DNA of 64,000 nt, from contig NZ_FXTN01000005.1 in assembly GCF_900182595.1 (NCBI RefSeq), positions 248,001 to 312,000 on the forward strand, read 5' to 3'. This DNA is from Pedobacter westerhofensis (GTDB lineage Bacteria; Bacteroidota; Bacteroidia; Sphingobacteriales; Sphingobacteriaceae). Both the position numbers and the translations under genes were made by a program. Shown one piece after another: positions 22,465-64,000 of this stretch. Position 1 is the first letter of the stretch. Every line of letters begins with the position of its first letter. The notes beneath the pieces are model-generated. The model saw nothing but the letters and a program-made list of their open reading frames with translations, made no database searches and was not told the DNA's origin.

Positions 22465-22467
22465 TAA

Positions 22468-23204: not shown

Positions 23205-23208
23205 GTTC

Positions 23209-23727: not shown

Positions 23728-23745
23728 TCTTCTCCTATTTTCAGA

Positions 23746-24099
23746 TTAAAATACTAAACCAGCTTCGCGGGCACCTTCTGCCAACGACTTTACGCGTCCG
23801 TGGTACAAATAGCCATTTCTATCGAAAACAACTTCTTTAATGCCAGCTGCGATTGCTTTTTCAGCTACTAATTTACCTACAGCTACAGATTGCTCTGATT
23901 TATTGCCATTACCAGAAAAATCTTTTGATAATGATGACGCTGATACCAATGTGCTTCCAGTTACGTCGTTAATGATCTGCGCATAAATTCCTTTATTGCT
24001 TCTATAAACTGATAAACGTGGACGGCTTTCAGAACCGGTCAATCTTTTTCTGATTCCTTTTTTTATACGATCTCTACGAGATAATTTTTTCCCTGCCAT
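23746..24099 (-). CDS. rplR: 50S ribosomal protein L18
   Basis: 117 residues, with [40 protein letters not shown] and [20 protein letters not shown]. It binds 5S rRNA in the central protuberance together with L5. Five bases separate it from rplF. Confidence 0.98.
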
Positions 24100-24104
24100 G
24101 ATGA

Positions 24105-24662: not shown

Positions 24663-24680
24663 TTTGTTATCCTCCTTTAA

Positions 24681-25079: not shown

Positions 25080-25161
25080 TTTTATTGATTTGTGATAGTG
25101 GTTTCCTTTCCGAACCATTCGGAGCGACCTTCCATCGGTTAATTTTCTTGTTAAACGTATA

Positions 25162-25201
25162 ACGTTAGCAGCATGCGCCTCTCCGGCGCAGCAACTAACG
25201 T
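25162..25201 (-). other. Two-part hairpin in the rpsN-rpsH gap
   Basis: Outer perfect stem ACGTTAG/CTAACGT (25162-25168 with 25195-25201), inner perfect stem GCGCC/GGCGC (25175-25179 with 25185-25189), and an asymmetric internal loop of 6 and 5 nt between them. There is no T-run. The shape resembles a protein-binding site on the mRNA upstream of the S8 gene, but S8 binding is only a guess. Confidence 0.45.
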
Positions 25202-25214
25202 AAAACGATTTTTC

Positions 25215-25484
25215 TTACCAGCTTGCTTTGGTAACTCCAGGAATTTTTCCTGCTAAAGCCATCTCACGGAATGTAACCCTTGAGATACCAAAAGTACGCA
25301 TGTAACCGCGTGGACGGCCAGTTAATTTACAACGGTTGTGTAAACGCACCGGTGACGAGTTTTTTGGTAACTTGTCCAGTCCTTCGAAATCACCTGCAGC
25401 TTTAAGTTCTGCACGTTTGTCTGCATATTTAGCAACCAATTTCTGGCGCTTAACTTCGCGAGCTTTTACTCCTTCTTTTGCCAT
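25215..25484 (-). CDS. rpsN: 30S ribosomal protein S14 (long, zinc-free form)
   Basis: 89 residues. The conserved C-terminal half is [20 protein letters not shown] followed by [20 protein letters not shown]. It has a single Cys in that region instead of the CxxC pairs of the short zinc form, so it is the zinc-independent type. Its start codon overlaps the rplE stop by one base. Confidence 0.97.
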
Positions 25485-26056
25485 TATTGCTCTGTATTAG
25501 GTGTTTGATTTTTAAATGGTAACCCGAATTGTTTTAACAATTCCAATGCCTCAACATCAGTTGTAGCAGAAGTTACAAAGGTAATATCCATTCCTAAAAT
25601 CTTAGAGATTTTATCAATGTTGATCTCAGGGAAGATGATTTGCTCAGTAATACCCAATGTGTAGTTACCTTTTCCATCAAATCCTTTATCGTTAATACCT
25701 TTGAAGTCACGGATACGCGGCAAAGCTACGGAAATTAAACGATCTAAAAACTCAAACATGTTGTTATCGCGTAAAGTTACACGTACACCTACCGGCATAC
25801 CTTTACGTAATTTGAAGTTTGAGATATCTTTTTTAGATTTTGCACCTACTGCCTGCTGACCAGAAATCGTGCTCATCTCTAAAATAGAGCTGTCCATGAT
25901 CTTTTTGTCAGTTACAGAGAAACGTCCAACACCCTGGTTGATTGCAATTTTCTCTAATTTAGGAACCTGCATTACGCTTTTGTAATTGAACTTGCTTTTC
26001 AGGGCAGGAACAACTTCCTCTTTGTATTTAGTCTTTAATCTTGGTATGTAAGTCAT
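25484..26056 (-). CDS. rplE: 50S ribosomal protein L5
   Basis: 190 residues, with [40 protein letters not shown] and [20 protein letters not shown]. It binds 5S rRNA and touches P-site tRNA. It shares single-base start/stop overlaps with rplX before it and rpsN after it, which points to coupled translation. Confidence 0.98.
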
Positions 26057-26397
26057 TATTTGATCTCCTCTCCTGATTTTTTAGATACCCTAACTAATTT
26101 CCCATCAGCATTAAGCTTTCTGCCAACACGCGTAGTTTTTCCAGTTTTTGGATCAATTAACGCAACGTTAGAAATATGAAGAGCAGCCTCTTTTTTAATG
26201 ATACCACCGTTTGGAGTAGCAGCATTTGGTTTTGTATGTTTAGATACAAGGTTCACACCTTCTACCAGAATTCTACTTTTAGTAATCAATACTGAAAGTA
26301 CTTTACCTTCCTGGCCTTTTGAATCACCAGCGATAACCTTTACTAAATCTCCTTTACGGATTTTTATCTTTGGTTGAACAGTTACTTTATTTTTCAT
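26056..26397 (-). CDS. rplX: 50S ribosomal protein L24
   Basis: 113 residues: KOW motif [20 protein letters not shown] at about 11-30, then [10 protein letters not shown] and [19 protein letters not shown]. It starts large-subunit assembly near the exit tunnel. One base separates it from rplN. Confidence 0.98.
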
Positions 26398-26398
26398 A

Positions 26399-26767
26399 TT
26401 ATAATACCTCCGGTGCTAATGATACAATTTTCATGAATTGTTTTTCACGCAGTTCTCTCGCTACCGGGCCAAAAATACGTGTACCACGCGGCTCATCTTG
26501 TGCATTCAATAATACTGCTGCGTTATCGTCGAAACGAATGTAAGAACCATCTTTACGTCTGATCTCTTTCTTTGTCCTTACCACAACTGCTTTCGAAACT
26601 GTTCCTTTTTTAATGTTTCCTGAAGGAAGTGCGCTTTTAACGGTAACAACGATTTTGTCACCAATTGACGCGTACCGTTTTCCGGTTCCACCAAGTACAC
26701 GAATTACGAGTACCTGTTTTGCGCCGCTATTGTCGGCTACGTTTAGTCTTGATTCCTGTTGTACCAT
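26399..26767 (-). CDS. rplN: 50S ribosomal protein L14
   Basis: 122 residues, starting [20 protein letters not shown], with [20 protein letters not shown] and [20 protein letters not shown]; full family length. It contributes to the subunit interface. It lies in line between rpsQ and rplX. Confidence 0.98.
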
Positions 26768-26768
26768 G

Positions 26769-27023
26769 TTATTTAGCCCTCTCTAAAATTTCCACTAATC
26801 TCCAGTTCTTGTTCTTACTCAGCGGACGAGTCTCCATGATCAGTACTGTATCACCAATACCGCAATCGTTTTTCTCGTCATGAGCCATAAATTTGGTAGT
26901 TTTCTTAACAAACTTACCATAGATCGGGTGTTTCACTTTACGCTCTACAGCAACAACAACAGATTTATCCATTTTATTGCTTACCACCAACCCGGTTCTT
27001 GTTTTTCTTAATTGTCTTTCCAT
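26769..27023 (-). CDS. rpsQ: 30S ribosomal protein S17
   Basis: The ATG at 27023 ([20 protein letters not shown]) is chosen because it matches the family and does not overlap rpmC; an upstream in-frame ATG (27050) would overlap it. About 84 residues with [20 protein letters not shown] and [22 protein letters not shown]-fold 16S rRNA binder. Confidence 0.96.
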
Positions 27024-27036
27024 TTCGACTCTAAAG

Positions 27037-27246
27037 TTATTTAGTTTCACTAGCTGACGCCGCTTTACGCTTTGTCATTTCAGTATTTAATCGGGCGATG
27101 TCTTTTCTTACCTTAGTGATACGGGTAGGATTCTCTATAGCCGATATTGTATGCGCAAATTTCAACTTAACCAAGTTTTCTTTTTCTTCTGCAATCCTGA
27201 CTACTAGTTCTTCTTGTGAAAGCCCTGTGATTTCTGAGTTCTTCAT
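27037..27246 (-). CDS. rpmC: 50S ribosomal protein L29
   Basis: 69 residues, a two-helix L29: [60 protein letters not shown]. It lies at the exit tunnel near SRP and trigger-factor docking sites. It is separated from rplP by 73 bp with no evident signal. Confidence 0.97.
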
Positions 27247-27319
27247 TTTATTAATTTTTATGTTCTGGGTCTAGCGGTTATAATAACAAGTTACTTACAA
27301 CATTGACCCCAAAACTTCT

Positions 27320-27742
27320 TTATGCCTCTACGTAATCTCTACGTACTACAAATTTTGTTTGGATAGGTAATTTCTGAGCTGCTAAACGCATTGCTTCTTT
27401 AGCGATTTCTAAAGATACGCCTTCAGCTTCAAAAATGATACGTCCCGGTCTTACAACTGCAACCCAGTATTCAGGAGCACCTTTACCTTTACCCATACGT
27501 ACTTCGGCTGGTTTCTTAGTTACCGGTTTGTCCGGGAATATTCTAATCCACACCTGGCCTTCACGTTTCATGAAACGAGTTACCGCAATACGGGCTGCCT
27601 CTATCTGACGACTGGTAATCCATGTCGCCTCTAAAGATTTAATCCCGAAAGACCCGAATGACAGTTCAGCACCACGTGTTGCTAAACCTTTCATTCTGCC
27701 CTTTTGCATCTTTCTGAACTTCGTTCTTTTTGGCTGTAACAT
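27320..27742 (-). CDS. rplP: 50S ribosomal protein L16
   Basis: 140 residues, starting [20 protein letters not shown], with [40 protein letters not shown] and [20 protein letters not shown]. It organises the A-site region of 23S rRNA. The Arg in [18 protein letters not shown] is at the position hydroxylated in some bacteria. Confidence 0.98.
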
Positions 27743-27780
27743 CTTATTTTAATATTATCGTTAAACGATCTGTTGACTAA

Positions 27781-28653
27781 TTATTTACGAGGACCTCTGT
27801 TTGCAGGATTTCCGCCTCTGTTATCTCTACCTGGACCGCCCTGACCCGGACCACCCTGACCTGGACCTCTTCCGCCACGACCGGCACCGCCTTTATTGTC
27901 GTTTCTTCTGTCGCCACCGCCACGGTTGTCTCTGTCTCTGCCGCCACCTGCACCAAAGTTACCTTCAGGTCTGCCACCTTTACCAGGAGCATTGCTTGTT
28001 GCACCAATGTTTGGAGAAAGATCACGTTTACCGTAAACCTCACCTTTACAGATCCATACTTTAACACCGATCTTACCGTAAGTAGTCAATGCCTCAGCTA
28101 ATGCATAGTCAATATCAGCACGGAAAGTATGCAAAGGAATTCTTCCTTCTTTATACTGCTCGTTACGAGCCATCTCTGCTCCGCCTAAACGACCTGAAGT
28201 CATTATCTTGATACCTTCAGCTCCCATACGCATTGTTGATGCGATTGTCGACTTCATGGCTCTACGGAAAGAGATCCTTGCCTCTAATTGTTTTGCTACA
28301 CCTTCTGCTACCAGTTGTGCATCAAGCTCAGGACGTTTGATCTCAAAAATGTTGATTTGAATCTCCTTTTTTGTAAGTTGTTTCAATTCTTCTTTGATCT
28401 TGTCAACCTCAGCTCCTGCTTTTCCGATAACGATTCCCGGACGGGCAGTGTGGATAGTTACAGTGATACGTTTTAACGTACGCTCGATAACTACTTTAGC
28501 TACTCCTCCTTTTGCGATACGCACAGAAAGGTATTTTCTTATTTTTTCGTCCTCAACTAATTTGTCAGCATAGTTGTTGCCACCGAACCAGTTAGAATCC
28601 CAACCTCTGATGATTCCCAACCTTGCTCCTATTGGATTTGCTTTTTGTCCCAT
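27781..28653 (-). CDS. rpsC: 30S ribosomal protein S3 with Gly/Arg-rich C-terminal tail
   Basis: 290 residues, against about 210-240 in most bacteria. Residues 1-210 are standard S3: [22 protein letters not shown] domain with [20 protein letters not shown], and [20 protein letters not shown]. From about residue 215 a tail of about 75 residues follows, rich in Gly, Arg, Asp, Asn and Pro, with repeats such as RDNRGGG and [11 protein letters not shown]. It looks like an RGG-type disordered segment at the mRNA entry side. An open frame on another frame across this tail is a by-product of its GC-rich repeats. Confidence 0.97.
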
Positions 28654-28658
28654 TTCTA

Positions 28659-29021
28659 CTAATTAGTTTGAGTTTCAACGTTTTTACTATCTACTACCAA
28701 AGTTACGTGGTTACTACGTTTACGTATTCTGTATCCACGGCCTTGAGGTGCTGGTCTCAGTCTTTTCAACTGACGGCCGCCACCAACCATTATAGTTTTC
28801 ACGTATAACTGGTTTTCTTCAGGGCGAGAACCTTCATTTTTAGTTTCCCAGTTTTTGATGGCTGACAACAAAAGTTTCTCAACTCTGATTGCCGCATCTT
28901 TATTGGTGAATTTTAAAATATGTAATGCTTTCTCAACACGCTCACCTCTGATAAGATCTACAACCAAACGCATCTTACGTGGTGAGGTTGGACAATTGTT
29001 TAATTTCGCTACTGCTTCCAT
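28659..29021 (-). CDS. rplV: 50S ribosomal protein L22
   Basis: 120 residues with [40 protein letters not shown] and [20 protein letters not shown], the loop that lines the exit tunnel. Wild-type-looking hairpin with no duplication or deletion of the kind tied to macrolide resistance. Confidence 0.98.
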
Positions 29022-29028
29022 CTCTTAA

Positions 29029-29295
29029 TTATTTTTTCTTTTCAGAGTGACCCCTAAATGTTCTGGTTGGAGCAAACTCTCCCAGCTTGTGACCAACCAT
29101 GTTTTCTGTTACGTATACCGGTATAAATTTGTTACCGTTATGAACTGCAAATGTATGATTCACGAAATCTGGTGAAATCATTGATCTGCGAGACCAAGTT
29201 TTAATGACAGACTTTTTGCCTGATTCATTCATAGAGACTACTTTCTTCTCTACGTTATGGTCGATGTAAGGTCCTTTTTTAATCGAACGTGCCAT
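29029..29295 (-). CDS. rpsS: 30S ribosomal protein S19
   Basis: 88 residues, [60 protein letters not shown]. It lies in the 30S head beside S13. Its start codon shares one base with the rplB stop. Confidence 0.98.
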
Positions 29296-30119
29296 TATTT
29301 CTTCCTTTTCTCTATGATGAAACGATTTGAGTATTTTTTAAGCGAACGGGTCTTAAAGCCTTTAGAATATAAACCATTCCTTGAGCGTGGCTGACCTCCT
29401 GATGAGCGACCCTCACCACCACCCATTGGGTGATCGACTGGGTTCATCGCTACCGGACGGGTTCTAGGACGACGTCCTAACCAACGTTTACGACCTGCTT
29501 TACCTAATACTTCATTTGCGTGATCCGAATTGGAAACTGCTCCTATTGTTGCTAAACAGGTAGTTAAAATTGATCTAACCTCACCTGAAGGCATTTTCAC
29601 AGTTGCATATTTACCATCACGTGCTGCTAATTGAGCATAAGCACCTGCACTACGTGCCAGTTGTGCTCCACGTCCTGGTTGAATTTCAATGTTGTGTACA
29701 ATTGAACCTAACGGAATGTTAGCTAATTTTAAAGTATTTCCAACTTCTGGAGTTGCTGTATCTCCCGATACTACTTTTTGCCCTACTTGCAATCCTTCCG
29801 GTGCAATGATATAACGCTTCTCACCATCTGCATAATGTAATAATGCGATGCGTGCTGTACGGTTTGGATCGTATTCAACAGTAGCTACTGTTGCAGGAAT
29901 ATCAAACTTATCACGTTTGAAATCAATCAAACGGTAAGATTTCTTGTGACCACCACCCATGTAGCGCATAGTCATTTTTCCTGTATTGTTACGTCCACCG
30001 GATTTCTTAGAAGAAACAACCAATGATTTTTCGGGCTTGGTTGCTGTAATCTCCGAGAAATCAGCCCCAACTCTAAAGCGGGTTCCCGGAGTGACTGGTT
30101 TAAATTTTCTTAAGCCCAT
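29295..30119 (-). CDS. rplB: 50S ribosomal protein L2
   Basis: 274 residues of normal length, with [40 protein letters not shown] and the conserved C-terminal region [20 protein letters not shown] including the His needed for peptidyl transfer and subunit joining. Confidence 0.98.
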
Positions 30120-30142
30120 AGTTATAAATAATTCAATTCTTA

Positions 30143-30433
30143 TTAAATATTCGCGTAATAATCAATTGTTTCGCCTGCTGCCAGGGTTACAATCGCCTTT
30201 TTATATTTCGGGCTACGTCCCGTTACCAAACCACCTTTTGTATTTCTTGATTTTAATTTTCCGTTCACAACCATTGTGTTGATCGCAAGAACATTAACAC
30301 CATACATTTTTTCGATAGCTTGTTTAATCTGCAGCTTGTTTGCTTTGTGCTCTACTTTAAAAGTGAAGCGGCTGGACTTCTCTGTAAGAGCAGAAGCTTT
30401 TTCTGTTAGTATTGGTTTCTTTAAAAATTCCAT
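30143..30433 (-). CDS. rplW: 50S ribosomal protein L23
   Basis: Starts [20 protein letters not shown] at 30433; an earlier in-frame start (30457) would overlap rplD. About 96 residues with [20 protein letters not shown] and [17 protein letters not shown]. It is a trigger factor and SRP docking site at the tunnel exit. Confidence 0.97.
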
Positions 30434-30434
30434 A

Positions 30435-31064
30435 TTACTTGGCAAATGCCTCCTCAATTGTTTTAACAGTATTTGCAGTCAACAAAAGTTTACCACAGTT
30501 TAATACATCATATGTATTCAACTGATCAGCGGTAATCACTTTCACTTTCTGAATGTTTCTGCTTGATAAATAGATATTGTTATCTTGAACAGGTAAAACC
30601 AACAAAGTTTTTTGACCAGTTAAGCTTAAAGCGTTAACAAGGTTCAAGTAATTTTTAGTTTTAACCGTGTCAAAAGTAAAATCTTCCAAAACAAGGATAT
30701 TGTTGTCCTGAGCTTTGTATGACAACGCAGATTTACGTGCCAGTGATTTTAATTTTTTATTCAGTTTGAAACTGTAATCACGTGGTTGAGGACCGAATAC
30801 ACGACCACCACCATTAAACAATGGAGATTTGATACTACCCGCACGGGCACCACCAGTTCCTTTTTGTTTGTACAACTTACGTGTTGAACCCGCGATTTCG
30901 TTACGTTGCTTAGATTTGTGAGTACCCTGACGTTGGTTAGCCAAATACTGTTTAACATCTAAATAAATTGCGTGATCGCTAGGTGTTACACCAAATACCG
31001 ACTCAGGAAGTTGCACCTTGGCACCTGTCTCTTTTCCTGAAATGTTTACTACATTAACTTCCAT
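30435..31064 (-). CDS. rplD: 50S ribosomal protein L4
   Basis: 209 residues with [40 protein letters not shown], and [20 protein letters not shown], the tunnel-lining loop. In E. coli, L4 represses its own S10 operon; no equivalent leader could be recognised here beyond an untranslated region of about 70 nt before rplC. Confidence 0.98.
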
Positions 31065-31068
31065 CTGC

Positions 31069-31686
31069 TTACTTGTCTAAGATTACGTAAGAACCTTTAG
31101 CTCCTGGAATGGAACCACTAACTACAACAAGATTTTGATCAGCATAAACTTTCAAAACCTGTAAGTTCTGAATCTTTACTCTGTCTCCACCCATTCTTCC
31201 TGCCATACGCATTCCTTTGAATACACGTGCAGGATACGAAGCAGCACCCAATGAACCCGGAGCACGCATTCTGTTATGCTGTCCGTGAGTTTGACCACCA
31301 ACACCACCAAATCCGTGGCGTTTCACAACACCCTGGAAACCTTTACCTTTTGAAGTACCTACAACATCAATAAAATCGCCTTCAGCAAAAATGTTTACCG
31401 TTACAGTATCACCTAAACTAAGTGATTCTTCAAACGGCTCAAATTCTACCAATTTACGTTTTGGAGTTGTGTTTGCTTTCGCAAAGTGGCCTTTAAGAGG
31501 CTGGGTTGTGTTCTTCGCTTTAGCTTCATCGAAGCCTAACTGTACTGAAACGTAACCGTCTTTCTCTTCGGTCTTAACCTGTGTAACTACACAAGGCCCA
31601 GCTTCGATCACCGTACATGGAATGTTTTTTCCATCGGCGTCGAAAATGCTGGTCATTCCTACTTTTTTTCCAATAATACCTGACAT
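31069..31686 (-). CDS. rplC: 50S ribosomal protein L3
   Basis: 205 residues: [80 protein letters not shown]. It is the first gene of its transcription unit here because an opposite-strand gene separates it from rpsJ. A consensus promoter lies 78-108 bp upstream. Confidence 0.98.
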
Positions 31687-32012
31687 TTTCTTTTTTTAAT
31701 TTAACACCCATCGTAGCAGTAGGGCTTCGTTCAAGGTGGATACACTTTCCCGTTAAGGGAGGGCAAAAATAGGAAAGAAATCTTAATTTTCAAATAGTTA
31801 GCGTATTATTTTTTCAAATAAATGCTATTATTTTTTAACAATTTGCAGAAAATGCAGTTAAAGCCAGTTTTAACGTACATGCTTGTGAATCAAAGCGATC
31901 TATTTTTTTTTGCACGACTGGTAATCAGGAGGAAACTACATGATGATGTGCGGACTGAACTTAGTGTAGTATATTTAAAATATCATTGCTAAATTCGTAC
32001 AAACAATCATTT
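31687..32012. other. Divergent intergenic region between rplC and the membrane-protein gene
   Basis: About 326 bp, AT-rich, with no coding frame. It holds the rplC promoter on the minus strand (31764-31794) and must hold the promoter of the plus-strand gene. I see no exact TAnnTTTG box for the latter; the closest is TAAATTCG at about 31990. Confidence 0.5.
31764..31794 (-). promoter_or_regulatory. Consensus promoter for the rplC (S10) transcription unit
   Basis: On the minus strand TTTG (31791-31794), a 19-nt spacer, and TATTTTTG (31764-31771) match the Bacteroidota -33/-7 consensus (TTTG and TAnnTTTG). The start of transcription would be near 31757, leaving a leader of about 70 nt before the rplC start at 31686. 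Confidence 0.7.
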
Positions 32013-32654
32013 ATGAACAAACTTATCTTATCTCTTCTCAGCTTCCTGATGATCAGCTTCGCGGTTGCCGGACAAGTTGCAGTGCCAGACACAGCAGCAA
32101 CAGCGGTTGGCACACCTAAAGTCCAGATCATTGACAACAGCCTGAAAGGCCAGTACCAGTCTCTCCTTTACCGCTCAAAGAGCTATTACGGCGCAAAACT
32201 GATTGTTCCGGGCCGGCTTACCGCTTTTTATAATAGTGTCGCCGATTCGATCAGAAAAGAGCGTGCAGGCAGCAGAACGGCCCAGAGTAAGATAAATGCC
32301 CAGGCTAAAACTATTGACACACTGAATGGCCAGATCAAAGCTAAAGAAGACGCCCTGGAGTCATCTAACTCAAAATCAGACGACATCACCTTTTTAGGCA
32401 TATCATTCAGCAAATCAACTTATAACACTATTGTCTGGTCAATCATCACTGTACTGGCGCTGGGCCTGATATTCGTCATCAGCAGATCTGCAAAAAACAT
32501 ACATGAGGCCAGATACAGGTCTGAACTTTATGAAGAGATTTCAAAAGAATACCAAACTTACAAGACCAAGTCTAACGAGAAAGAAAAGAAACTGGCCAGG
32601 GAACTGCAGGATGAGCGGAACAAACTCGAAGAATACAAGAATAAGGGTATCTAA
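32013..32654 (+). CDS. Small exported or membrane-anchored coiled-coil protein of unknown function
   Basis: I do not recognise the family. From the ATG at 32013 the protein has 213 residues: signal peptide 1-20 (MNKLILSLLSFLMISFAVAG), a region up to about 75, a first heptad-like helix at about 76-118, a membrane segment at about 138-157 (NTIVWSIITVLALGLIFVIS), and a highly charged helix at 165-211. The charged C-terminal part after the membrane segment is presumably cytoplasmic. An in-frame start at 31986 would add nine residues before the signal peptide and is less likely. The gene is alone on the plus strand, set into the ribosomal cluster between rpsJ and rplC, and ends at a strong terminator shared with rpsJ. 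Confidence 0.75.
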   Translation: MNKLILSLLSFLMISFAVAGQVAVPDTAATAVGTPKVQIIDNSLKGQYQSLLYRSKSYYGAKLIVPGRLTAFYNSVADSIRKERAGSRTAQSKINAQAKTIDTLNGQIKAKEDALESSNSKSDDITFLGISFSKSTYNTIVWSIITVLALGLIFVISRSAKNIHEARYRSELYEEISKEYQTYKTKSNEKEKKLARELQDERNKLEEYKNKGI

Positions 32655-32666
32655 TACAATATCATA

Positions 32667-32714
32667 GTTAAACAGAAAAGGCCTCCGGAAATCCGGAGGC
32701 CTTTTCTGTTTAAC
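32667..32714. terminator. Bidirectional terminator between rpsJ and the inserted gene
   Basis: Perfect inverted repeat with 23-bp arms (32667-32689 with 32692-32714) and a 2-nt loop; the core is GGCCTCCGGA, flanked by AAAA and TTTT on either side. It ends the rpsL-rpsG-fusA-rpsJ transcript on the minus strand and the membrane-protein gene on the plus strand, so rpsJ and rplC are in different transcription units. Confidence 0.9.
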
Positions 32715-32726
32715 GTAAAAAACTAA

Positions 32727-33032
32727 TTATACTTTGATTTCTACTTCAACACCGCTAGGTAATTCAAGTTTCATCAGCGCATCAACAGTTTTAGAGTTAG
32801 AGCTATAAATATCTAACAAACGTTTGTAAGCACATAATTGAAATTGCTCACGTGCTTTTTTGTTCACGTGTGGTGAACGCAAAACTGTGAAGATTTTCTT
32901 TTCTGTTGGCAACGGAATTGGTCCGCTAACCACTGCACCTGTAGGTTTAACAGTCTTAACGATTTTCTCAGCAGATTTATCTACCAAGTTGTAATCGTAA
33001 GATTTTAACTTAATTCTGATTCTTTGGCTCAT
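32727..33032 (-). CDS. rpsJ: 30S ribosomal protein S10
   Basis: 101 residues: [60 protein letters not shown]. It is also the transcription factor NusE. It is the last gene of the str unit here, whereas it normally heads the S10 operon with rplC next. Confidence 0.98.
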
Positions 33033-33046
33033 GATATTTGTGTTAA

Positions 33047-33080
33047 GGCTGCCTGTTAGAGCTATTAATAACAGGCGGCC
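33047..33080 (-). other. Hairpin in the fusA-rpsJ gap
   Basis: 12-bp stem with one mismatch (33047-33058 with 33069-33080; core GCCTGTTA/TAACAGGC) and a 10-nt loop. There is no T-run on the minus strand, so it is more likely a processing or stability element than a terminator. Confidence 0.4.
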
Positions 33081-33097
33081 GGTTTAATTTTATACTA

Positions 33098-35212
33098 CTA
33101 GTCGATAGATTTGATTCTGCCTTTTGATTTGGCAATAACTTCATCCTGTACGTTTCTTGGAGCCGGATCATAGTGATCAAATTCCATTGTAGAAGTCGCA
33201 CGGCCTGAAGTGATCGTACGCAGTTGCGTAACATAACCAAACATTTCAGAAAGAGGCACAGTAGCTTTGATCACTTGTGATCCGTTACGTGTATCCATTC
33301 CTAAAAGCTGACCACGACGACGGTTCATGTCACCGATTACATCACCCATGTTTTCTTCAGGAGTAAGGATTTCGATTTTCATGATTGGCTCCATCAATAC
33401 CGGGTTACATTTAGGCAACGCTTCACGGTAAGCCATTTTAGCTGCTAATTCGAATGACAAAGCATCTGAATCGACTGCGTGGAATGAACCATCAATTAAG
33501 CGAACTTTCATGTCAGGAAGCGGGTAACCAGCTAATACGCCGTTAGACATAGATGCTGCGAATCCTTTTTCAACTGAAGGGATAAACTCACGTGGAATAG
33601 ATCCACCTGTGATTTCGTTTACAAACTGTAAACCACCTTTTTCCCAGTCAGCATCAATTGGAGAAATCACAACCTGGATGTCTGCAAATTTACCACGACC
33701 ACCTGATTGTTTTTTATAAGTCTCACGGTGTTGTACTGTTCCGTTGATTGCTTCTTTATAAGCTACCTGCGGAGCACCCTGATTTACTTCAACTTTAAAC
33801 TCACGTTTTAAACGGTCGATCAGGATATCCAGGTGAAGCTCACCCATACCAGAGATTACAGTCTGACCAGTTTCCTCGTCAGTTTGAACCCTGAATGTAG
33901 GATCTTCTTCAGCAAGTTTAGATAATCCCATACCTAACTTATCGATATCAGCCTGAGTTTTAGGCTCAATAGCTAAACCAATAACCGGCTCAGGGAAGTT
34001 CATTGACTCCAGAACAATCGGGTTTTTCTCTTCGCAAAGTGTATCACCTGTTTTGATATCCTTGAAACCTACTACCGCAGCAATATCACCAGCTCCAACA
34101 TTTGGAATAGGGTTTTGCTTGTTAGCATGCATCTGGAAGATACGGGAGATACGCTCTTTGTTTTCAGAACGTGCATTGTAAATGTATGAACCTGCTTCTA
34201 AGTTACCCGAGTAAACACGGATAAAGCAAAGACGGCCTACGAAAGGATCCGTTGCAATTTTAAATGCTAAAGCTGCAAAAGGCTCTTTTTCACTTGGTTT
34301 ACGCAATACTTCTTCGCCTGTATCAGGGTTGGTACCTACGATACCTTCTGAGTCCATTGGTGAAGGCAATAATTCCATCACATAGTCAAGCATGGTCTGT
34401 ACACCTTTGTTTTTGAAAGATGAACCACAAACCATTGGTACGATTGTAGCGTCCAATACTGCTTTACGCAATGCATCAAGAATTTCACGCTCAGTGATTG
34501 AGTTTGGATCTTCAAAGAATTTCTCCATCAAAGACTCATCATAATCAGCAACAGATTCCAGTAATTTCTCTCTCCACTCAGCAACCTCATCGATCATATC
34601 GTCAGGAATTGGCACTTCAGTAAAGGTCATACCTTTATCATGCTCATTCCAAACGATACCACGGTTGTTAATTAAATCAACAACACCAGTAAAGTTATCT
34701 TCAGCACCGATTGGTAACTGCAATGGAACAGCGTTACTGCCTAACATGCTTTTAACCTGTCCAACAACTTTTAAGAAATCTGCACCAGAACGGTCCATTT
34801 TATTTACGAAGCCGATACGGGCAACGTTATAGTTGTTAGCCAGACGCCAGTTAGTTTCTGACTGAGGCTCAACACCATCAACTGCAGAAAATAAGAACAC
34901 CAAACCATCAAGTACACGCAGTGAACGGTTTACCTCTACGGTAAAATCCACGTGACCCGGTGTATCAATGATGTTAATATGGTAATCTTGTCCTCTGTAT
35001 TTCCAGCCTACTGTTGTAGCAGCAGAAGTAATGGTAATACCACGTTCCTGCTCCTGTGCCATCCAGTCCATCGTAGCTGCACCTTCGTGCACTTCTCCGA
35101 TTTTGTGACTTACACCAGCATAATAAAGGATACGCTCTGTTGTAGTAGTCTTACCAGCATCAATGTGCGCAGCAATACCGATGTTTCTTGTATATCTTAA
35201 GTCTCTTGACAT
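33098..35212 (-). CDS. fusA: Translation elongation factor G
   Basis: 704 residues, full-length EF-G. GTPase motifs [19 protein letters not shown] (P-loop), RGITITSAA (switch I), [12 protein letters not shown] (switch II), [10 protein letters not shown]; then domains II-V with [20 protein letters not shown] and C-terminal [20 protein letters not shown]. It drives ribosome translocation. It stands in the standard rpsL-rpsG-fusA order, 17 bp after rpsG. Confidence 0.98.
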
Positions 35213-35228
35213 CTTATGATTTCAATAA

Positions 35229-35696
35229 TTAAAAACGGAAATGTGAGAACGCTTTGTTGGCTTCAGCCATTTTGTGCGTATCTTCTTTCTTTTTAACAGC
35301 AGCACCTTCACCTTTAGCAGCTGAAACGATTTCTCCTGCCAATTTTTCTTTCATGGTTTTTTCACCACGTCTGCGTGCAAATGAAATTAACCATTTCATG
35401 CCTAAAGCAATCTTACGGTCCGGACGAACTTCTGTAGGAACCTGGAAGTTAGCACCACCAACACGGCGTGATTTAACCTCCACTGCAGGCATTACATTTG
35501 TTAAAGCACGTTTCCATACTTCTAAACCGTTCTCACCAGCTTTTTTCTCAGCTAATTCTACTGCATCATAAAAAATAGAGTAAGCAATGGATTTTTTTCC
35601 ATCGTACATCATATTGTTTACAAACCTCGTCACCTGAACATCGTTAAATTTCGGATCAGGAAGGATAATTCTCTTTTTTGGTTTTGACTTTCTCAT
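35229..35696 (-). CDS. rpsG: 30S ribosomal protein S7
   Basis: 155 residues, [60 protein letters not shown], ending NKAFSHFRF. It organises the 30S head and, in E. coli, represses translation of the str operon. Confidence 0.98.
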
Positions 35697-35712
35697 TTTC
35701 TGTTCCTCCTAA

Positions 35713-36126
35713 TTATTTCTTTTTACCTTTTGTTGGTGCGGCAGCTACCTGACCTGGTTTTGGACGTTTAGTACCATATTTTGAACGACGTTGGTTACGA
35801 CCAGCAACACCTGAAGTATCTAAAGCTCCACGGATGATGTGATAACGTACTCCTGGTAAATCTTTAACACGACCACCACGGATCAATACGATAGAGTGCT
35901 CCTGTAAGTTGTGACCTTCTCCAGGAATATAAGCGTTAACTTCTTTTCCATTGGTCAAACGTACACGCGCTACTTTACGCATTGCTGAGTTTGGTTTTTT
36001 AGGGGTAGTGGTATATACACGTGTACATACACCTCTTCGCTGTGGACAACTGTCCAACGCCGGAGACTTACTCTTGAACTCCAGTGCTACTCTACCTTTT
36101 CTAACTAATTGTTGAATGGTTGGCAT
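35713..36126 (-). CDS. rpsL: 30S ribosomal protein S12
   Basis: 137 residues: [60 protein letters not shown], plus a C-terminal basic tail. The Lys residues in TPKKPNS and RVKDLPG (positions 43 and 88 in E. coli numbering) are wild type, so no streptomycin-resistance change is visible. First gene of the str unit, 55 bp downstream of a promoter. Confidence 0.98.
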
Positions 36127-51603: not shown

Positions 51604-51674
51604 TTGCCCGACCAGGATTCGAACCTAGACAAACGGTACCAAAAACCGTTGTACTACCTTTATACTATCGGGCA
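51604..51674 (-). tRNA. tRNA-Gln (anticodon UUG)
   Basis: 71-nt cloverleaf on the minus strand. The acceptor stem is TGCCCGA/TCGGGCA, with the U1-A72 pair typical of tRNA-Gln. The anticodon stem is ACGGT/ACCGT around loop TTTTGGT, giving anticodon TTG. The T arm contains GGTTCGAATCC. Discriminator A; the CCA end is not encoded. It is preceded by a consensus promoter and followed by a terminator, so it is an independent unit. Confidence 0.93.
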
Positions 51675-56217: not shown

Positions 56218-57567
56218 TTATTTGTCCTGTCCGTTTTGTATGTAAAGAACAGATACAGCGCCCAGGATCATGAATATTCCGGCCAGGACAATCGCATAGA
56301 TCGCCTCGCCATGATAAAATTCCTTCACGATCAGCCCGCCGAACAAACCATTTACGATCTGCGGCATTGTGATAAAGAAGTTAAAAATCCCCATATACAC
56401 ACCCATTTTGCGGGCAGGAATAGCTCCGGATAAGATCGCATAAGGCATAGAGAGGATACTGCCCCAGGCCAGGCCAATACCAATCATCGAAAAAATCAGA
56501 TGGTCAGGATTAGAGATAAAGTAAATAGATAACAGCCCCGCTCCCCCTGCGATCAGCGAAAAAGCATGTGCAATCTTCTTGCTCGTTGCCCTGGCTATAG
56601 CTGGCAGGATCAGTGCATACAGTGCCGAAACCCCATTATAGATACCAAACAAAAATGCCACCCAGTTACCTGCATCCGCAAATTTCACAGAAGAAGTATC
56701 TCCCGGAAGCACTTTATAAATATGCTGTGCAATGGCAGGCGTAGTAAACACCCACATCGAGAACAGGGCAAACCAGGAGAAAAACTGTACCAGTCCCAGC
56801 TGCTTCATGGTTAAAGGCATATTGGAGAAATCCGTAAGGATGGAAAGCACGCCCTTTTGTTCTTCAGTTTCCGGCTCCGCGGCATGGTATAAGGCCATTT
56901 CTTCCGGCGGATATTCTTTGGTATTCAATACTGTCCACAAAATCGTAAGCAGTAAAATTGCCGCACCGGCATAAAAAGAGTAAATTACATTATGAGGCAC
57001 CTGCCCTGCTGCCGCTACTTTGGAAGCACCAAGGTACTCAGAAAAGATGTATGGCAGCCATGATCCCGAGATTGCACCTGCACCAATCAGGAAAGTCTGC
57101 ATAGAGAACCCAAAGCTCCTTTGCTCTTCCGGCAGTTTGTCCCCCACCAGTGCCCTGAAGGGTTCCATCGCTACGTTGATCGAAGCATCCATGATCATCA
57201 GCATCCCTGCACCAATAATAATCGGGGGAAGAAAACTGGCCATTGCACCGGCATTGGGCATCAGGATCAGCGCAATTGCTGTCAGGATTGCCCCCACAAG
57301 AAAATAGGGGCGCCTTCTGCCAAAGCGGTTCCAGGTACGGTCACTGTAATAGCCGATGATTGGCTGTACAATCATTCCCGTCAGCGGTGCTGCCAGCCAG
57401 AACAGGGAAAGATGTTCCACATCGGCACCAAAGGTTTGCAGGATCCTCGAAGCATTGCCATTTTGCAGGGCAAAACCAAACTGTATACCAAAAAATCCGG
57501 CACTCATGTTAAAGATCTGCAGGCTGGATAATTTTGGTTTGGCGGCAATCACTTTATTTTCTTGCAT
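56218..57567 (-). CDS. MFS sugar transporter (maltose-type, SLC45-like)
   Basis: 449 residues with about twelve membrane segments. LSSLQIFNMSAGFFGIQFGF begins TM1; the A-loop is GYYSDRTWNRFGRRRPYFLV with the RxGRRRP signature shared with sucrose/maltose carriers of the GPH and SLC45 groups; MDASINVAMEPFRALVGDKL follows. It lies last in the maltodextrin operon, 32 bp after the GH13 amylase gene, so import of maltose or short dextrins across the inner membrane is the likely role. Confidence 0.88.
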   Translation of the reverse strand: MQENKVIAAKPKLSSLQIFNMSAGFFGIQFGFALQNGNASRILQTFGADVEHLSLFWLAAPLTGMIVQPIIGYYSDRTWNRFGRRRPYFLVGAILTAIALILMPNAGAMASFLPPIIIGAGMLMIMDASINVAMEPFRALVGDKLPEEQRSFGFSMQTFLIGAGAISGSWLPYIFSEYLGASKVAAAGQVPHNVIYSFYAGAAILLLTILWTVLNTKEYPPEEMALYHAAEPETEEQKGVLSILTDFSNMPLTMKQLGLVQFFSWFALFSMWVFTTPAIAQHIYKVLPGDTSSVKFADAGNWVAFLFGIYNGVSALYALILPAIARATSKKIAHAFSLIAGGAGLLSIYFISNPDHLIFSMIGIGLAWGSILSMPYAILSGAIPARKMGVYMGIFNFFITMPQIVNGLFGGLIVKEFYHGEAIYAIVLAGIFMILGAVSVLYIQNGQDK

Positions 57568-57598: not shown

Positions 57599-59359
57599 TT
57601 AGAAAACTAAGATCTGTGCAGTCATTGGCAATACCCATACAGGTATGGTATTATCTTGAATATCGTTTATTTTTAAATCCGACAGCTCATCATGAACCGC
57701 ATGTACCGGCTTGCCCTGCAAAACATCAGCAGGAACATGCAGCTGGCATTCCATTCTGTAATGGCGGTCAAAATTGACCAGGATCAGCAAGCGCTGGTTA
57801 GCTGTATAGCGTATATAGCCATACATTCTCTTATTCATATTTCCGGCAACCGGGATCTCCCACAGCTTGCCTTTGGCAACAGCTTCTGAAGAACCTGCCA
57901 GCCGTAAAAGTTTTACGTAGTAATCCCGCAGCGCTTTTTGTTCCGTACCAAGGCCGGCACCATCAAAGGCCCCCCTGTTCATCCATTTCTGATGTTCCGG
58001 GACGCCCCAGTAGTCAAAGATCGACGTACGGTTGTCCTCGCCGCCAAATCCTTCAGCTCCGCGTGCAGGCTCGCCCACTTCCTGACCAGAATAGGTCATT
58101 ACCGGTCCGCCGGATAAAGTTGCCGAAACTACCATCGCAGGCAATGCCAGTTCTGCCCTTCCGGCAAAACCGCCGGAGGCAATACGCTCTTCATCATGGT
58201 TTTCCAGGAAACGCAGCATATGATCGCCAAAGCCCGCACTTTCATGCTGCCAAACGCGGCGGATATCATTGACGTCGGCATTGTCTTCGCTCCTGATCAG
58301 TCTTTTGAGCCCGTCATATAAACCTACCTTGTCATACAGGTAATCAAACTTGCCTGCAGTAAGAAAGGAGTTGTATTTTGAGGGATCATAGGCCTCGCCG
58401 ATAAAGACCAGCTCAGGATTGATTTTTTTTACTTCCGGGATCACCCAGCCCCAGAAGGCTAAGGGAACCATTTCTGCCATATCACAGCGGAAACCATCCA
58501 CACCTTTTCGCGTCCAGAAGGATAAGATATCACGCATTTTTGTCCATACTCCCGGTATAGGATCAAAATGTTCTTTCTCCTGATCGAGATAATCTATACC
58601 ATAATTCAGCTTCACGGTTTCATACCAGTCGTCCACAGAAGGGTGTTCCGAAAAAACATTATTCCCTGTGGCCTTTGCCGGTGATTCAACATAGTGATGT
58701 TGCTGCAAAGCGATCAATGGTGTTTGGTGGCCTGATCTTGGTCCCGGGACAACAAAATCCTTTCCGGGAACATAGTAATAATCATTCCCGGCGCTAAAGG
58801 CCAGATGCACATCATCGCCTTCGCCAAAGTCTTTAACACCGGCAGGCTTCATGCGCGATTGATATTCACGGGCCACATGGTTAGGCACAAAGTCGATAAT
58901 CACCTTAAGGCCTTTTGCATGCGTCCTTTTGATCAGCGCCTCAAATTCTGCCATCCTGTTTTTTACATCGGTAGCCAGGTCCGGGTCTATATCATAATAA
59001 TCCCTTACTGCGTAGGGCGATCCGGCCCTGCCTTTAACCACATTGGCATTATTTGCCGGAAGCCCGGCGTCACTATAGTCTGTCAGGGTTCCGTGCGAGA
59101 TTACCCCGGTAAACCACACATGCGTAGTTCCCAGTTCCTTAATGCCCTCCAGCGCACGGTCGCTGATATCCTCAAACTTACCGCTGCCGTTCTGTTCAAT
59201 TGTTCCGTAAGGAACATTATTTTATTGCTTATTGCCAAATAACCTTGGCAGAAGCTGGTAGATCATTAGTTTATTATTCTTTTCCTGTGCCATACCTGCA
59301 TCCATAATTCCTGTAACCAGTACTATAATTAAGACAGCTGTGCGGCAAGGGACCTTCAT
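57599..59359 (-). pseudogene. GH13 alpha-amylase interrupted by an in-frame stop at codon 46
   Basis: The frame runs from an ATG at 59359 (overlapping the GH65 stop as ATGA) with a signal-like N-terminus (MKVPCRTAVLIIVLVTGIMD) and GH13 start KLMIYQLLPRLFGNKQ. It then meets TAA at 59222-59224, and resumes in the same frame with NNVPYGTIEQNGSGKFEDIS and a full (beta/alpha)8 domain. Catalytic residues, numbered from 59359: Asp293 (GFRCDMAE), Glu322 (FIGEAYDP) and Asp389 (ENHDEERI). The part after the stop is intact to the end. The first start after the stop in an unbroken frame (GTG 59119) would lose the first beta strand. It may be a nonsense mutation or a sequencing error. Confidence 0.85.
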
Positions 59360-61677
59360 ACGGCCATCCCTTTCCAGGCAATTACCGTTTCACCTGCCGG
59401 CACACTGTGCAATTGGTTAAAGATATTAATGTCCATCATTGTTTTCGCAGGATTCACGATAGTAATGTCATCGCGCGTCACTTTTATTTTGAGTTGTACA
59501 CCGCGGAAACCGATGTTAAAAGAGAACGAATTCCACTGCTCCGGCAGAAAAGGGCTGAATGAAAGCTGGTTATTGCGCACGCGCATTCCTGCAAATCCTT
59601 CAACAATACTCATCCATGTACCCGCCATGGAAGTGATGTGCAGCCCGTCTTCAGTATCATTGTTATAATCATCCAGGTCTAAACGTGAGGTACGCAGGTA
59701 AAACTCATACGCTTTTTCACCATCGTTCAGCTTTGCTGCCAGAATACTGTGCACACAGGGTGATAAAGAGCTTTCGTGTACCGTGCGGGATTCATAGAAA
59801 TCAAAATTCCTGCGCAGCGACTCCATGTCATAGTCGTCTTCAAAGAAATACATGCCCTGTAAAACATCTGCCTGTTTGATAAAGCACGAACGCAGTATCC
59901 TGTCCCAGCTCCATTTCTGATTGATCGGGCGCTGTGATGCAGGCAGCTCGCTTACCAGTGTTTGTTCCTTATCCAGGAAACCGTCCTGCTGCAGAAAAAT
60001 TCCCTTTTCCTCATCATACGGAAGATAGATATTTTCAGATACCGCTTTCCAGTCGGCAAACTCCTGTGCTTCCTCTAAGTTTACTTTCCCCGCGATCTCC
60101 TGGTATCTTGCAGGATCTTCTGCTTTCACAATCTCCGTTGCTTCTACCGCATATTTTAAACACCATGCTGCGAGTGTGCTGGTATACCAGTTATTGTTTA
60201 CGTTGTTCTCATATTCATTTGGCCCGGTTACGCCGAGCATGACATACTGCTGTCTGGCTTCGCTCCAGTTTACCCTTTGTTTCCAGAACCTGGCAATGCC
60301 GATGAGTACTTCCAGTCCGTATTCTTTAAGGTAGCTCTGGTCTCCCGTGTACCGGATATAATTAAAAATCGCAAAAGCAATTGCCCCGTTACGGTGGATC
60401 TCCTCAAATGTGATCTCCCATTCATTGTGGCACTCTTCGCCGTTCATAGTTACCATAGGGTACAATGCCGCACCTTTATCAAATCCCAGTTTCTGCGCAT
60501 TCTCAATGGCTTTTTCCAGGTGTTTATATCTGTAGACAAGCAGGTTCTTTGAAACTTCCTGCGGGGCTGTAGACAGATAAAAAGGAATACAATAAGCTTC
60601 CGTATCCCAATACGTAGAACCCCCGTACTTTTCGCCGGTAAATCCTTTGGGGCCAATATTTAAACGGGCATCCTTACCTGTATAAGTCTGGTTTAGCTGG
60701 AAGATATTAAAGCGTATGGCCTGCTGTGCAGCCACATCACCTTCAATGATAATATCACCTTCCTCCCATTTGGTAGCCCATGCAGCAGCCTGTTCTTCAA
60801 GCAATGCTGTAAAACCTTTTAGTACAGCAGCCTCCAGCACAGCGGTTGCGCTGGTTGTTAATTCCGCAGAATCATAGTTCTGTGAAGAAAGGTTAGTGGC
60901 TATCTTATAGATATCAACAGCTTCGCCGGCAGTTAAGTCAACAGCTGTCAGCTCGGCCAGATATTTATCCTTTACAGCAGTGTCTGCACTAAGCTGCGAC
61001 TGGCCCGCTTTGGTAAAAACCAAAGTTTTAACTCCGGTAACTACATCAAAATCAGTTTTTTTCGTACGCATAGTCAGGTACGAGCCGCTGTCATTCTGCG
61101 TCCTGCCAACTTCATCCCAGAATTTTTCGTCATAGTTGGAGTCCTGGTTTTTCACATCCCCGTCAATGAAAGATGTAAGTTCTAGTTTCCCGGAGAAGTT
61201 AAGTGCAGTAAGCTGGTAGTGCAGCGCTGCAATCTCATCATTCGCAATGCTGAAAAATCTTTTAGCAGTTACACTGATCTGTTTGCCTGATGCCAGTTCT
61301 GCATTAAAACTACGTTCCAGGTAACCTTCTTTCATATTCAGGATACGCTTAAAACCTGTCACCTTGCACAAGTTCAGGTCCAGCTCTTCGCCATCAAGGC
61401 GAATGCCAAGGCCCATCCAGTTTGCTGCGTTAAGCACTTTCGCAAAGTACTCGGGATAGCCGTTTTTCCACCAGCCTACCCTGGTTTTATCAGGATAGTA
61501 AACACCTGCAACATAATTTCCCTGCAGGGTATCGCCAGAATAACTTTCTTCAAAGTTTGCGCGCTGTCCCATGCGCCCGTTGCCCAGGCTAAACAGGCTT
61601 TCTGATATTTTATTTAGATGAGGATCAAAACCTTCCTCTATAATATTCCACTCTTCTGCTTGTATGTAATTCTTCAT
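59356..61677 (-). CDS. GH65 glycoside phosphorylase (maltose phosphorylase type)
   Basis: About 773 residues from the ATG at 61677 (MKNYIQAEEWNIIEEGFDPH). N-terminal beta-sandwich with ESLFSLGNGRMGQRANFEES; (alpha/alpha)6 catalytic domain with the general acid Glu488 in VTGPNEYENNVNNNWYTST, a position and motif that match maltose phosphorylases. The phosphate-binding His-Ser pair is seen in YESRTVHESSLSPCVHSILA. The reaction is maltose plus phosphate to glucose plus beta-glucose-1-phosphate in the cytoplasm. The next gene upstream, pgmB, makes the follow-up enzyme and ends 7 bp before, which supports the maltose (or at least alpha-glucobiose) assignment. Confidence 0.93.
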   Translation of the reverse strand: MKNYIQAEEWNIIEEGFDPHLNKISESLFSLGNGRMGQRANFEESYSGDTLQGNYVAGVYYPDKTRVGWWKNGYPEYFAKVLNAANWMGLGIRLDGEELDLNLCKVTGFKRILNMKEGYLERSFNAELASGKQISVTAKRFFSIANDEIAALHYQLTALNFSGKLELTSFIDGDVKNQDSNYDEKFWDEVGRTQNDSGSYLTMRTKKTDFDVVTGVKTLVFTKAGQSQLSADTAVKDKYLAELTAVDLTAGEAVDIYKIATNLSSQNYDSAELTTSATAVLEAAVLKGFTALLEEQAAAWATKWEEGDIIIEGDVAAQQAIRFNIFQLNQTYTGKDARLNIGPKGFTGEKYGGSTYWDTEAYCIPFYLSTAPQEVSKNLLVYRYKHLEKAIENAQKLGFDKGAALYPMVTMNGEECHNEWEITFEEIHRNGAIAFAIFNYIRYTGDQSYLKEYGLEVLIGIARFWKQRVNWSEARQQYVMLGVTGPNEYENNVNNNWYTSTLAAWCLKYAVEATEIVKAEDPARYQEIAGKVNLEEAQEFADWKAVSENIYLPYDEEKGIFLQQDGFLDKEQTLVSELPASQRPINQKWSWDRILRSCFIKQADVLQGMYFFEDDYDMESLRRNFDFYESRTVHESSLSPCVHSILAAKLNDGEKAYEFYLRTSRLDLDDYNNDTEDGLHITSMAGTWMSIVEGFAGMRVRNNQLSFSPFLPEQWNSFSFNIGFRGVQLKIKVTRDDITIVNPAKTMMDINIFNQLHSVPAGETVIAWKGMAV

Positions 61678-61683
61678 CAGCAA

Positions 61684-62358
61684 TTAGTTTTTATTCTTTT
61701 GCACTACCAGATCAATCAGCTGCTGTACAGATACGGCCGACAAATCTTTTACCCATATATCTGCGCCCGGCAGGTTCTTTTCCTCGCCTACGCCAACCAC
61801 AGTCATTTTTGCCGCAATAGCAGCTTCTACACCTGCAGAGGCATCTTCAAAAACGATGCAATTTTCTGCAGCTGCTTTTAAAAGCTCTGCACCTTTTACA
61901 AATACTTCAGGATCAGGTTTTGAGGTAGTTACCGCATTACCATCCACGATCGCATCAAAAAAATGCGTAAGATTTGTGCGTTCAAGGATCAGCCCGGAGT
62001 TTTTGCTTGCAGAGCCCAGGGCAATCTTAATTCCCTTTGCGTGTAAAGCCTGCAGCAATTCCAGTGAGCCCGGCAGTACTTCAGCAGCAGACATCTTACT
62101 GATCATATCCACATACCATGTATTTTTTAATGTGGCGAGTTCTTCTTTCTCTTCATTGTTTTTTTGTACACCGCCCCAGTCTAATATTTTGTCCAGGGAG
62201 CGCATACGGTTTACCCCTTTGAGCTGTTCATTTTGCTCATGGCTAAAGTCAAAACCCAGGGAATTGGCCAGTTTTTTCCAGGCCTGGTAGTGATACACAG
62301 CTGTATCTACCAATACCCCATCCAGGTCAAAAATGCATGCTATCGTCGTATCTTCCAT
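61684..62358 (-). CDS. pgmB: Beta-phosphoglucomutase
   Basis: 224-residue HAD hydrolase-fold mutase. DxD motif FDLDGVLVD with nucleophile Asp11 and acid/base Asp13; cap domain with EQLKGVNRMRSLDKIL, typical of beta-PGM (KLKGVSR-like) and absent from phosphatases; motif II LGSASKNSG; Lys in VTTSKPDPEVFVKGAELL; CIVFEDASAGVEAAIAAKMT. It converts beta-glucose-1-phosphate to glucose-6-phosphate. It lies between GH13 and GH65 genes. Confidence 0.95.
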   Translation of the reverse strand: MEDTTIACIFDLDGVLVDTAVYHYQAWKKLANSLGFDFSHEQNEQLKGVNRMRSLDKILDWGGVQKNNEEKEELATLKNTWYVDMISKMSAAEVLPGSLELLQALHAKGIKIALGSASKNSGLILERTNLTHFFDAIVDGNAVTTSKPDPEVFVKGAELLKAAAENCIVFEDASAGVEAAIAAKMTVVGVGEEKNLPGADIWVKDLSAVSVQQLIDLVVQKNKN

Positions 62359-62372: not shown

Positions 62373-64000
62373 TTAGTTCAGTTCCAGTACCAGCGTTGTT
62401 TGTGCCGGCACAGCAATCTCTGTATTTGTTTTCAGTTTCTCTCCGCTGATCACATTGCTCAGTGAGGTTGTATTTTTCATTTGACCAGCAAACCTGGCAG
62501 TTTTCAGCGTTTTTGCTTTATCCTCTGCGTTCAAAATTACCATTACGCTTTTAGTTCCTGCATCCGTTGTTCTGAAATACACATATATACCGTCTTCCGG
62601 TACATACTGGATCAGTTTGCCGGACTGCAGGGCAGGGCTTTGCTGGCGGAAATGCGCCAGTTTGCTTACATAATTGAAGGCTTCATTTTCCTGTGGGGTA
62701 CGGCCTGCGGCAGTAAATTTACTCATTTTATCTCCTGCCCATCCGCCGGGGAAATCAGACCTTACCAATCCGTCAGGATCAGAAAAGTTTTTCATTAAAA
62801 TCTCTGTACCGTAATACAGCTGCGGTACACCGCGCATCGTCAGCAGTAAGGCTATACCCGATTTGTATTTATTGATATCCTCTTTGATCAGGGAGTAAAA
62901 ACGGCTCATATCATGGTTATCCAAAAAGATCGCGTTGCGGTTGGCATCCTGGTAAAGGAAATCCTGAGATAGAACAGTATACAACCTGAAAATACCGTCT
63001 GTCCAGCCGGATTTACCATTCAGTGCTTCATAAAACGTATTTTTGAGCATGTTGTCTGTCACGCCTGGAAGCTGTGTATCAAGTCCCCTGCTTACGGTAT
63101 TACCCTGTGTAAAATAAGCCTGTGAGGCTACAGAGTTTACCAGTGTTTCGCCAAAGATAGACAGATGTGGAAACTCAGCTTTCAGCTTTGTAGCCCAGTC
63201 GGCCATATAAGCCGGTTCATTGTAAGGATAAGTATCCAGTCTCAGTCCGTCGATACCGGCATATTCGATCCACCAGATATGGTTTTGTGTCAGGTAATTC
63301 TGCACATAGGGGTTTCTTTCATTCAGGTCTGGCATGGTAGGTACAAACCAGCCGTCCAGCATTTTCTTCCTGTCGCCTTCCGCAGCATGAGGGTCCATTA
63401 CAGGCTCATCGCGATAGCTGCTTTGTGTGTATACCGGCCATTGGTTCACCCAGTCTTTCATTGGCAGGTCTTTAAAGATCCAGTGACCTGTGCCGATGTG
63501 GTTATGCACGATATCTTTGATGATTTTTAAGCCATTTGCGTGTGCTTTTTCTACGTAAGCTTTAAATAAGGCATTGGTTCCGTAACGCGGATCAATCTGA
63601 TAATGATCCGTTACAGCATAGCCGTGATAAGAAGCCTTTGGCATATCATTTTCTACCTCCGGTGTCATCCACAGCGTAGTTACGCCCAGGTCTTTGAAAT
63701 AATCCAGGTGGTTCATCACACCCTGTATATCTCCGCCATGGCGGTAATACATCGAGTCGCGGTTGAGCGTTTGTTCTGCCAGTCCTTTCACTTTATCGTT
63801 AGATGGATCGCCGTTTGCAAAGCGGTCTGGCATCAGCAGATAGATCAGGTCTTTATTGGTTACGCCCTGGATGCGGGATGGAGAGGCATCTCTGTTTTTC
63901 AGCTCATAGCTGTAATCGAATTTCTTTTTGCCGTTTTCCATAAAGGAGATCGGGAATTTGCCTGCTTTCGCAGCGGCGGATATCTCCAGGTCGATGAAGA
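62373..64000 (-). CDS. GH13 cyclomaltodextrinase/neopullulanase-like enzyme (5' end cut off)
   Basis: The frame is open to the window edge: residues FIDLEISAAAKAGKFPISFM precede the first internal ATG at 63941, so the true start lies beyond 64000. The visible start fits the end of a cyclomaltodextrinase N-terminal beta domain, followed by the GH13 barrel (DLIYLLMPDRFANGDPSNDK, MYYRHGGDIQGVMNHLDYFK). The catalytic residues are Asp in GIDGLRLDTYPYNE, Glu in LSIFGETLVNS and Asp in FLDNHDMSRF, and the C-terminal beta domain ends TTLVLELN. It resembles SusA-type neopullulanases, which cut imported dextrins in the periplasm. First known gene of the operon in the window. Confidence 0.92.
   Translation of the reverse strand, partial: FIDLEISAAAKAGKFPISFMENGKKKFDYSYELKNRDASPSRIQGVTNKDLIYLLMPDRFANGDPSNDKVKGLAEQTLNRDSMYYRHGGDIQGVMNHLDYFKDLGVTTLWMTPEVENDMPKASYHGYAVTDHYQIDPRYGTNALFKAYVEKAHANGLKIIKDIVHNHIGTGHWIFKDLPMKDWVNQWPVYTQSSYRDEPVMDPHAAEGDRKKMLDGWFVPTMPDLNERNPYVQNYLTQNHIWWIEYAGIDGLRLDTYPYNEPAYMADWATKLKAEFPHLSIFGETLVNSVASQAYFTQGNTVSRGLDTQLPGVTDNMLKNTFYEALNGKSGWTDGIFRLYTVLSQDFLYQDANRNAIFLDNHDMSRFYSLIKEDINKYKSGIALLLTMRGVPQLYYGTEILMKNFSDPDGLVRSDFPGGWAGDKMSKFTAAGRTPQENEAFNYVSKLAHFRQQSPALQSGKLIQYVPEDGIYVYFRTTDAGTKSVMVILNAEDKAKTLKTARFAGQMKNTTSLSNVISGEKLKTNTEIAVPAQTTLVLELN

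Follow-up and report, generated by a model that had tools for sequence, protein, structure and literature searches.

A private in-frame TAA in an operonic GH13 gene of Pedobacter westerhofensis, probably a recent nonsense mutation

The DNA analyzed here, referred to as the window, is a stretch of 64,000 nucleotides from Pedobacter westerhofensis. Its minus strand carries an operon that encodes, in order, a GH13 enzyme with a cyclomaltodextrinase C-terminal domain, a beta-phosphoglucomutase (beta-PGM), a GH65 enzyme, a GH13 enzyme whose gene is interrupted, and an MFS/GPH-type sugar symporter. The gene order is identical in the sister genome G116. The operon is best read as a maltose/starch operon, with the interrupted GH13 protein as an accessory enzyme. 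The genes surrounding the interrupted frame are as follows.

62373-63941, minus strand: second GH13 enzyme, with a cyclomaltodextrinase C-terminal domain; no interior stop
61684-62358, minus strand: beta-phosphoglucomutase gene; no interior stop
59356-61683, minus strand: GH65 glycosyl hydrolase/phosphorylase gene; no interior stop, its own stop overlapping the ATG of the interrupted GH13 gene as ATGA
56218-57567, minus strand: MFS/GPH-type sugar symporter gene, adjoining the interrupted GH13 gene downstream; no interior stop

The open frame of the second GH13 gene (620 aa) runs beyond its ATG at 63941 and beyond the window edge. The interrupted gene itself is divided as follows.

57599-59359, minus strand: GH13 alpha-amylase-family frame with one interruption; 586 codons plus the final stop
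59225-59359, minus strand: upstream remnant of 45 codons, with a signal-peptide-like N-terminus (judged by eye) and beta-1 of the barrel
59222-59224, minus strand: in-frame TAA, codon 46; a sense codon in all 109 related loci and glutamine in the 15 closest
57599-59119, minus strand: downstream open frame of 506 aa from the first internal start, a GTG; begins inside beta-2 of the predicted model

The initial annotation had described an in-frame TAA at codon 46 of an otherwise intact GH13 gene, and this is borne out: the triplet at 59224-59222 is the sole interior stop between the ATG at 59359 and the end of the frame at 57599. The same annotation had taken the upstream ATG as the original start. 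The ATG overlaps the TGA of the GH65 gene as ATGA, and the GTATGA joint between the two genes is also present in the sister genomes G116 and G035. Because this overlap is kept in two sister genomes, the ATG at 59359 very probably served as the start in the ancestor as well. The first in-frame ATG, GTG, or TTG on the 3' side of the TAA is the GTG at 59119, codon 81 of the frame.

Assignment to GH13, with the catalytic triad kept, was likewise sustained. The downstream fragment matches PF00128 with an E-value of 1.5e-20 (74.3 bits), and the protein read through the stop matches profile positions 1-356 with an E-value of 1.9e-24 (87.2 bits); both scores lie above the curated cut-off of 22 bits that defines a family match. 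The frame contains FRCD at 290, GEAY at 321, and ENHDE at 386, which we take to be the motifs around the GH13 catalytic triad. The Asp/Glu/Asp residues themselves, D293, E322, and D389, are invariant in an alignment of 37 sequences. The N-terminus of the frame has, by eye, the look of a signal peptide, and the enzyme is probably exported.

A comparison with the orthologous gene in relatives, which the initial annotation had proposed as a check, shows that codon 46 encodes an amino acid in every one of the 109 related loci. These loci comprise 29 whole-genome loci and 80 named contigs, with some genomes counted twice. The comparison used stop-free segments, and codon 46 was aligned in every one of them; none of the 109 therefore has a stop there, as expected for a nonsense pseudogene, whose stop is absent from orthologues. 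The 15 closest whole-genome loci (L010-L024) have CAA or CAG, both encoding glutamine, and more distant relatives have Thr, Ala, Ser, Gln, Asn, Gly, Glu, or Pro. The TAA is a single C-to-T transition away from the glutamine codon of the close relatives. Since all related loci have a sense codon, and the closest have glutamine, the TAA is derived and seen only in this genome; on the basis of these alignments, it is private and young. A family-wide search with the read-through protein gave matches in 225 of 399 genomes, and no stop other than that of the window itself was found among the matches listed.

The downstream 506 residues find a match at E<=1e-100 in 109 of 145 genus genomes (own included); in each of the other 108, the frame is free of stops and, at 582-644 aa, long enough to span codon 46. 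At this cut-off, which would miss more diverged copies, 36 of the 145 genomes lack a match; among the 132 genomes with completeness of 90% or more and contamination of 5% or less, the number is 26. The 36 genomes without a match suggest that loss of this GH13 gene is probably tolerated.

The stop also forms the end of a short repeat.

59222-59235, minus strand: two adjacent copies of GCAATAA, a perfect 7-base tandem in which the stop closes the second copy

Perfect 7-base tandems occur at seven separate places in the window (13 start positions), this pair included. The pair was possibly made by local template switching, but it more likely arose by chance. Template switching from the neighboring heptamer would need three transitions relative to the nearest sister, or two relative to P. 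hartonius. The differences in the tandem other than the nonsense change are third-position CAG/CAA changes, which vary among relatives, so an ordinary point change suffices, and template switching was set aside.

The remainder of the frame was examined for signs of decay. It matches the 586-residue frame of the sister genome end to end and contains neither a second stop nor another lesion, and amino-acid change is without clear excess. Nonsynonymous distances alone were used, because many genes have synonymous distances close to saturation or past it. The dN on the branch leading to the interrupted gene is 0.039, as compared to 0.045 on the sister branch, a ratio of 0.87. The corresponding ratios are 0.86 for the other GH13 gene, 0.62 for GH65, 0.63 for beta-PGM, and 0.60 for the symporter. 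At 246 alignment columns that are invariant in 29 other Pedobacter copies, the interrupted frame has no changes of its own; counted in this way, each of the two nearest relatives has 2 changes, 11 of the 29 copies have none, and no copy has more than 6. Neither measure supports an old decay of the gene. If the loss is real, these distances indicate that it is very recent.

The structural consequence of truncation was assessed with a predicted model of the GH13 protein, which has a barrel fold (mean pLDDT 77, pTM 0.82). A Foldseek comparison with solved GH13-type structures gives strong E-values, with 14-19% identity among the 50 matches listed. The earliest strand of the model, beta-1, spans residues 32-36, and beta-2 spans residues 80-83. 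Codon 46 lies in coil behind beta-1 (pLDDT about 72 in that block), and codon 81, the GTG, falls within beta-2. A product started at this GTG would therefore lack beta-1 and alpha-1 of the model, and with them the signal-peptide-like N-terminus, in agreement with the earlier statement that the downstream fragment is missing the first strand of the barrel. With the TAA placed after beta-1 and the first internal start in beta-2, the model predicts a complete barrel only upon read-through.

These features bear on whether the interrupted gene might still provide an enzyme. Restart of translation on the 3' side of the TAA could in principle give a working shorter protein, as the GTG at 59119 opens 506 codons. 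This protein would begin inside beta-2 and lack beta-1, alpha-1, and the signal-peptide-like N-terminus, and a dozen or more residues that are invariant in 37 sequences lie on the 5' side of the GTG (Y34, Q35, R39, G42, N43, G52, N57, G58, G60, K61, D64, and A69). We regard a functional restart as exceedingly improbable. Nearly as improbable is reading of the TAA by a near-cognate tRNA at useful levels, which would give a down-regulated full-length enzyme. Such read-through would be compatible with the position of codon 46, which lies in coil after beta-1 of the model and is occupied by eight residue types in relatives, so that a wide choice of inserted residues might be functional. Constraint on the sequence past the TAA would also fit read-through, but the youth of the mutation accounts for it. 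A hairpin on the 3' side of the stop (z -1.99; 7 of 200 shuffled sequences fold equally well) would likewise be in line with recoding, and the 83-base stretch from this genome has the lowest folding energy among the 14 sequences compared. However, a local hairpin occurs at the matching place in 8 of 13 relatives that have no stop, so the structure is not stop-specific, and it was given no weight in either direction. Belinky et al. 2021 argued that many in-frame bacterial stops are read through, and kept only stops occurring at the same position in two or more genomes (PMC7918605). The suspected read-through stops of that study share with the GH13 gene purifying selection around the stop, but theirs are shared by at least two genomes, whereas the GH13 TAA is found in one genome only and in none of the 109 related loci.

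The decoding machinery was surveyed genome-wide. A search with RF00005, in which 150 of 354 first-look candidates were scored, found 53 tRNAs, and none has the UUA anticodon of a suppressor tRNA that would mark a recoded stop. Anticodons were read by ARAGORN for 52 of them, and that of the last, Cys(GCA), was taken from the covariance alignment. This last tRNA-like gene (G000:C17:64562-64631, L177) scores 42.2 bits and was not reported by ARAGORN, which did report two other Cys tRNAs. The only tRNA-Gln among the 53, with anticodon TTG, lies in the window at 51604-51674 on the minus strand, some 7.5 kb away from codon 46 of the interrupted gene. Two further points count against useful read-through: the genome has a release factor 1 match above cut-off and without stops, and TAA terminates 46 of 52 window genes. 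A second release-factor match, below cut-off, may be RF2. No interior stop is found in 56 SusC-type matches across the genome (56 of 156 first-look candidates scored; two lie in the window). With no UUA anticodon among the 53 tRNAs and with stop-free SusC-type matches, there is no sign that TAA has a sense meaning throughout the genome, and a suppressor tRNA or changed genetic code was rejected. A tolerated leaky allele, read at a low level by tRNA-Gln(UUG) or another near-cognate tRNA at a permissive loop so that the enzyme is dialed down rather than lost, would likewise be a very improbable outcome.

A wrong base is a more serious concern, although we consider it unlikely. By this account, the TAA was introduced during sequencing or assembly of the draft genome, and the living strain has an intact GH13 gene. 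The draft is in 40 contigs with a contamination estimate of 3.12%, the TAA is one base off the codon of the relatives, and the rest of the frame is undamaged; the absence of a second lesion fits an error as well as it fits a young loss. The surroundings were compared gene by gene with two sister genomes. This comparison was limited to frames of 100 codons or more that do not overlap one another and that match at 50% identity or higher, which retained 52 of 61 G116 frames and 54 of 64 G035 frames. Any stop 5 residues or fewer from the end of a match was ignored, and smaller lesions, or lesions in genes without a counterpart, would be missed. Only the interrupted GH13 gene contains an interior stop, whether the comparison is with the 52 G116 counterparts (17,037 aligned codons) or with the 54 G035 counterparts (17,608 aligned codons). 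Coverage of the sister's frame is 85% or more for all 52 G116 matches; in the G035 comparison, it falls below 85% for two short frames, neither of which contains a stop. No stop is present in 14 other amylase match rows of the genome, as in the SusC-type matches. In addition, the change is a substitution and not a homopolymer indel. The assembly thus looks clean where examined, and a substitution error at the TAA is unlikely.

These data suggest that a recent, private nonsense mutation, a C-to-T change in a glutamine codon, probably truncated an operonic and probably exported GH13 enzyme after 45 residues. Two observations weigh against this interpretation: the picture would be identical if the base had been misread or misassembled, or if the mutation had arisen in culture, and the dN ratio of 0.87 is somewhat above those of the GH65, beta-PGM, and symporter genes, yet it is near that of the other GH13 gene. 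The initial annotation had offered three readings of the stop. The first, that the operon is losing one amylase, is favored by the relatives, with the loss very recent; read-through finds no positive support; and a wrong base is a less likely alternative.

By the proposed route, the C-to-T transition in glutamine codon 46 would have created the TAA, ending the GH13 product after 45 residues. The truncated peptide would be expected to be inactive, and restart at the internal GTG would yield neither a working barrel nor export. The remaining operon would likely still work via the other GH13 enzyme, the GH65 enzyme, the beta-PGM, and the symporter, and the interrupted gene would be expected to decay or revert.

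Like private bacterial nonsense pseudogenes, this accessory gene is intact apart from a single in-frame stop, which is absent from the relatives examined. Nothing notable separates it from that class, except that it is very young and without a second lesion. Its Pfam match, triad motifs, and modeled barrel fold place it with the GH13 alpha-amylase family (PF00128), as does its operon with a GH65 enzyme, a beta-PGM, a second GH13 enzyme, and a sugar symporter. It differs from that family in being truncated after beta-1 and in the low identity of its listed Foldseek matches. Nonsense loss of one gene is an ordinary event in bacteria. The GH13 gene should be annotated as interrupted in this genome, and the strain may make less use of starch or maltodextrin. 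Provided that the base is correct, the locus shows cleanly how a gene looks just as it is being lost, when the rest of its sites still seem to be under constraint.

Two further observations concern the surrounding DNA. The symporter gene (56218-57567, minus strand) begins about 30 bases past the interrupted GH13 gene; given this spacing, the early stop may reduce symporter expression through polarity. Elsewhere in the window, positions 16671-36126 hold mostly minus-strand genes, most of which have much lower dN and dS relative to the sister genome than their surroundings. This block may be a ribosomal-protein cluster.
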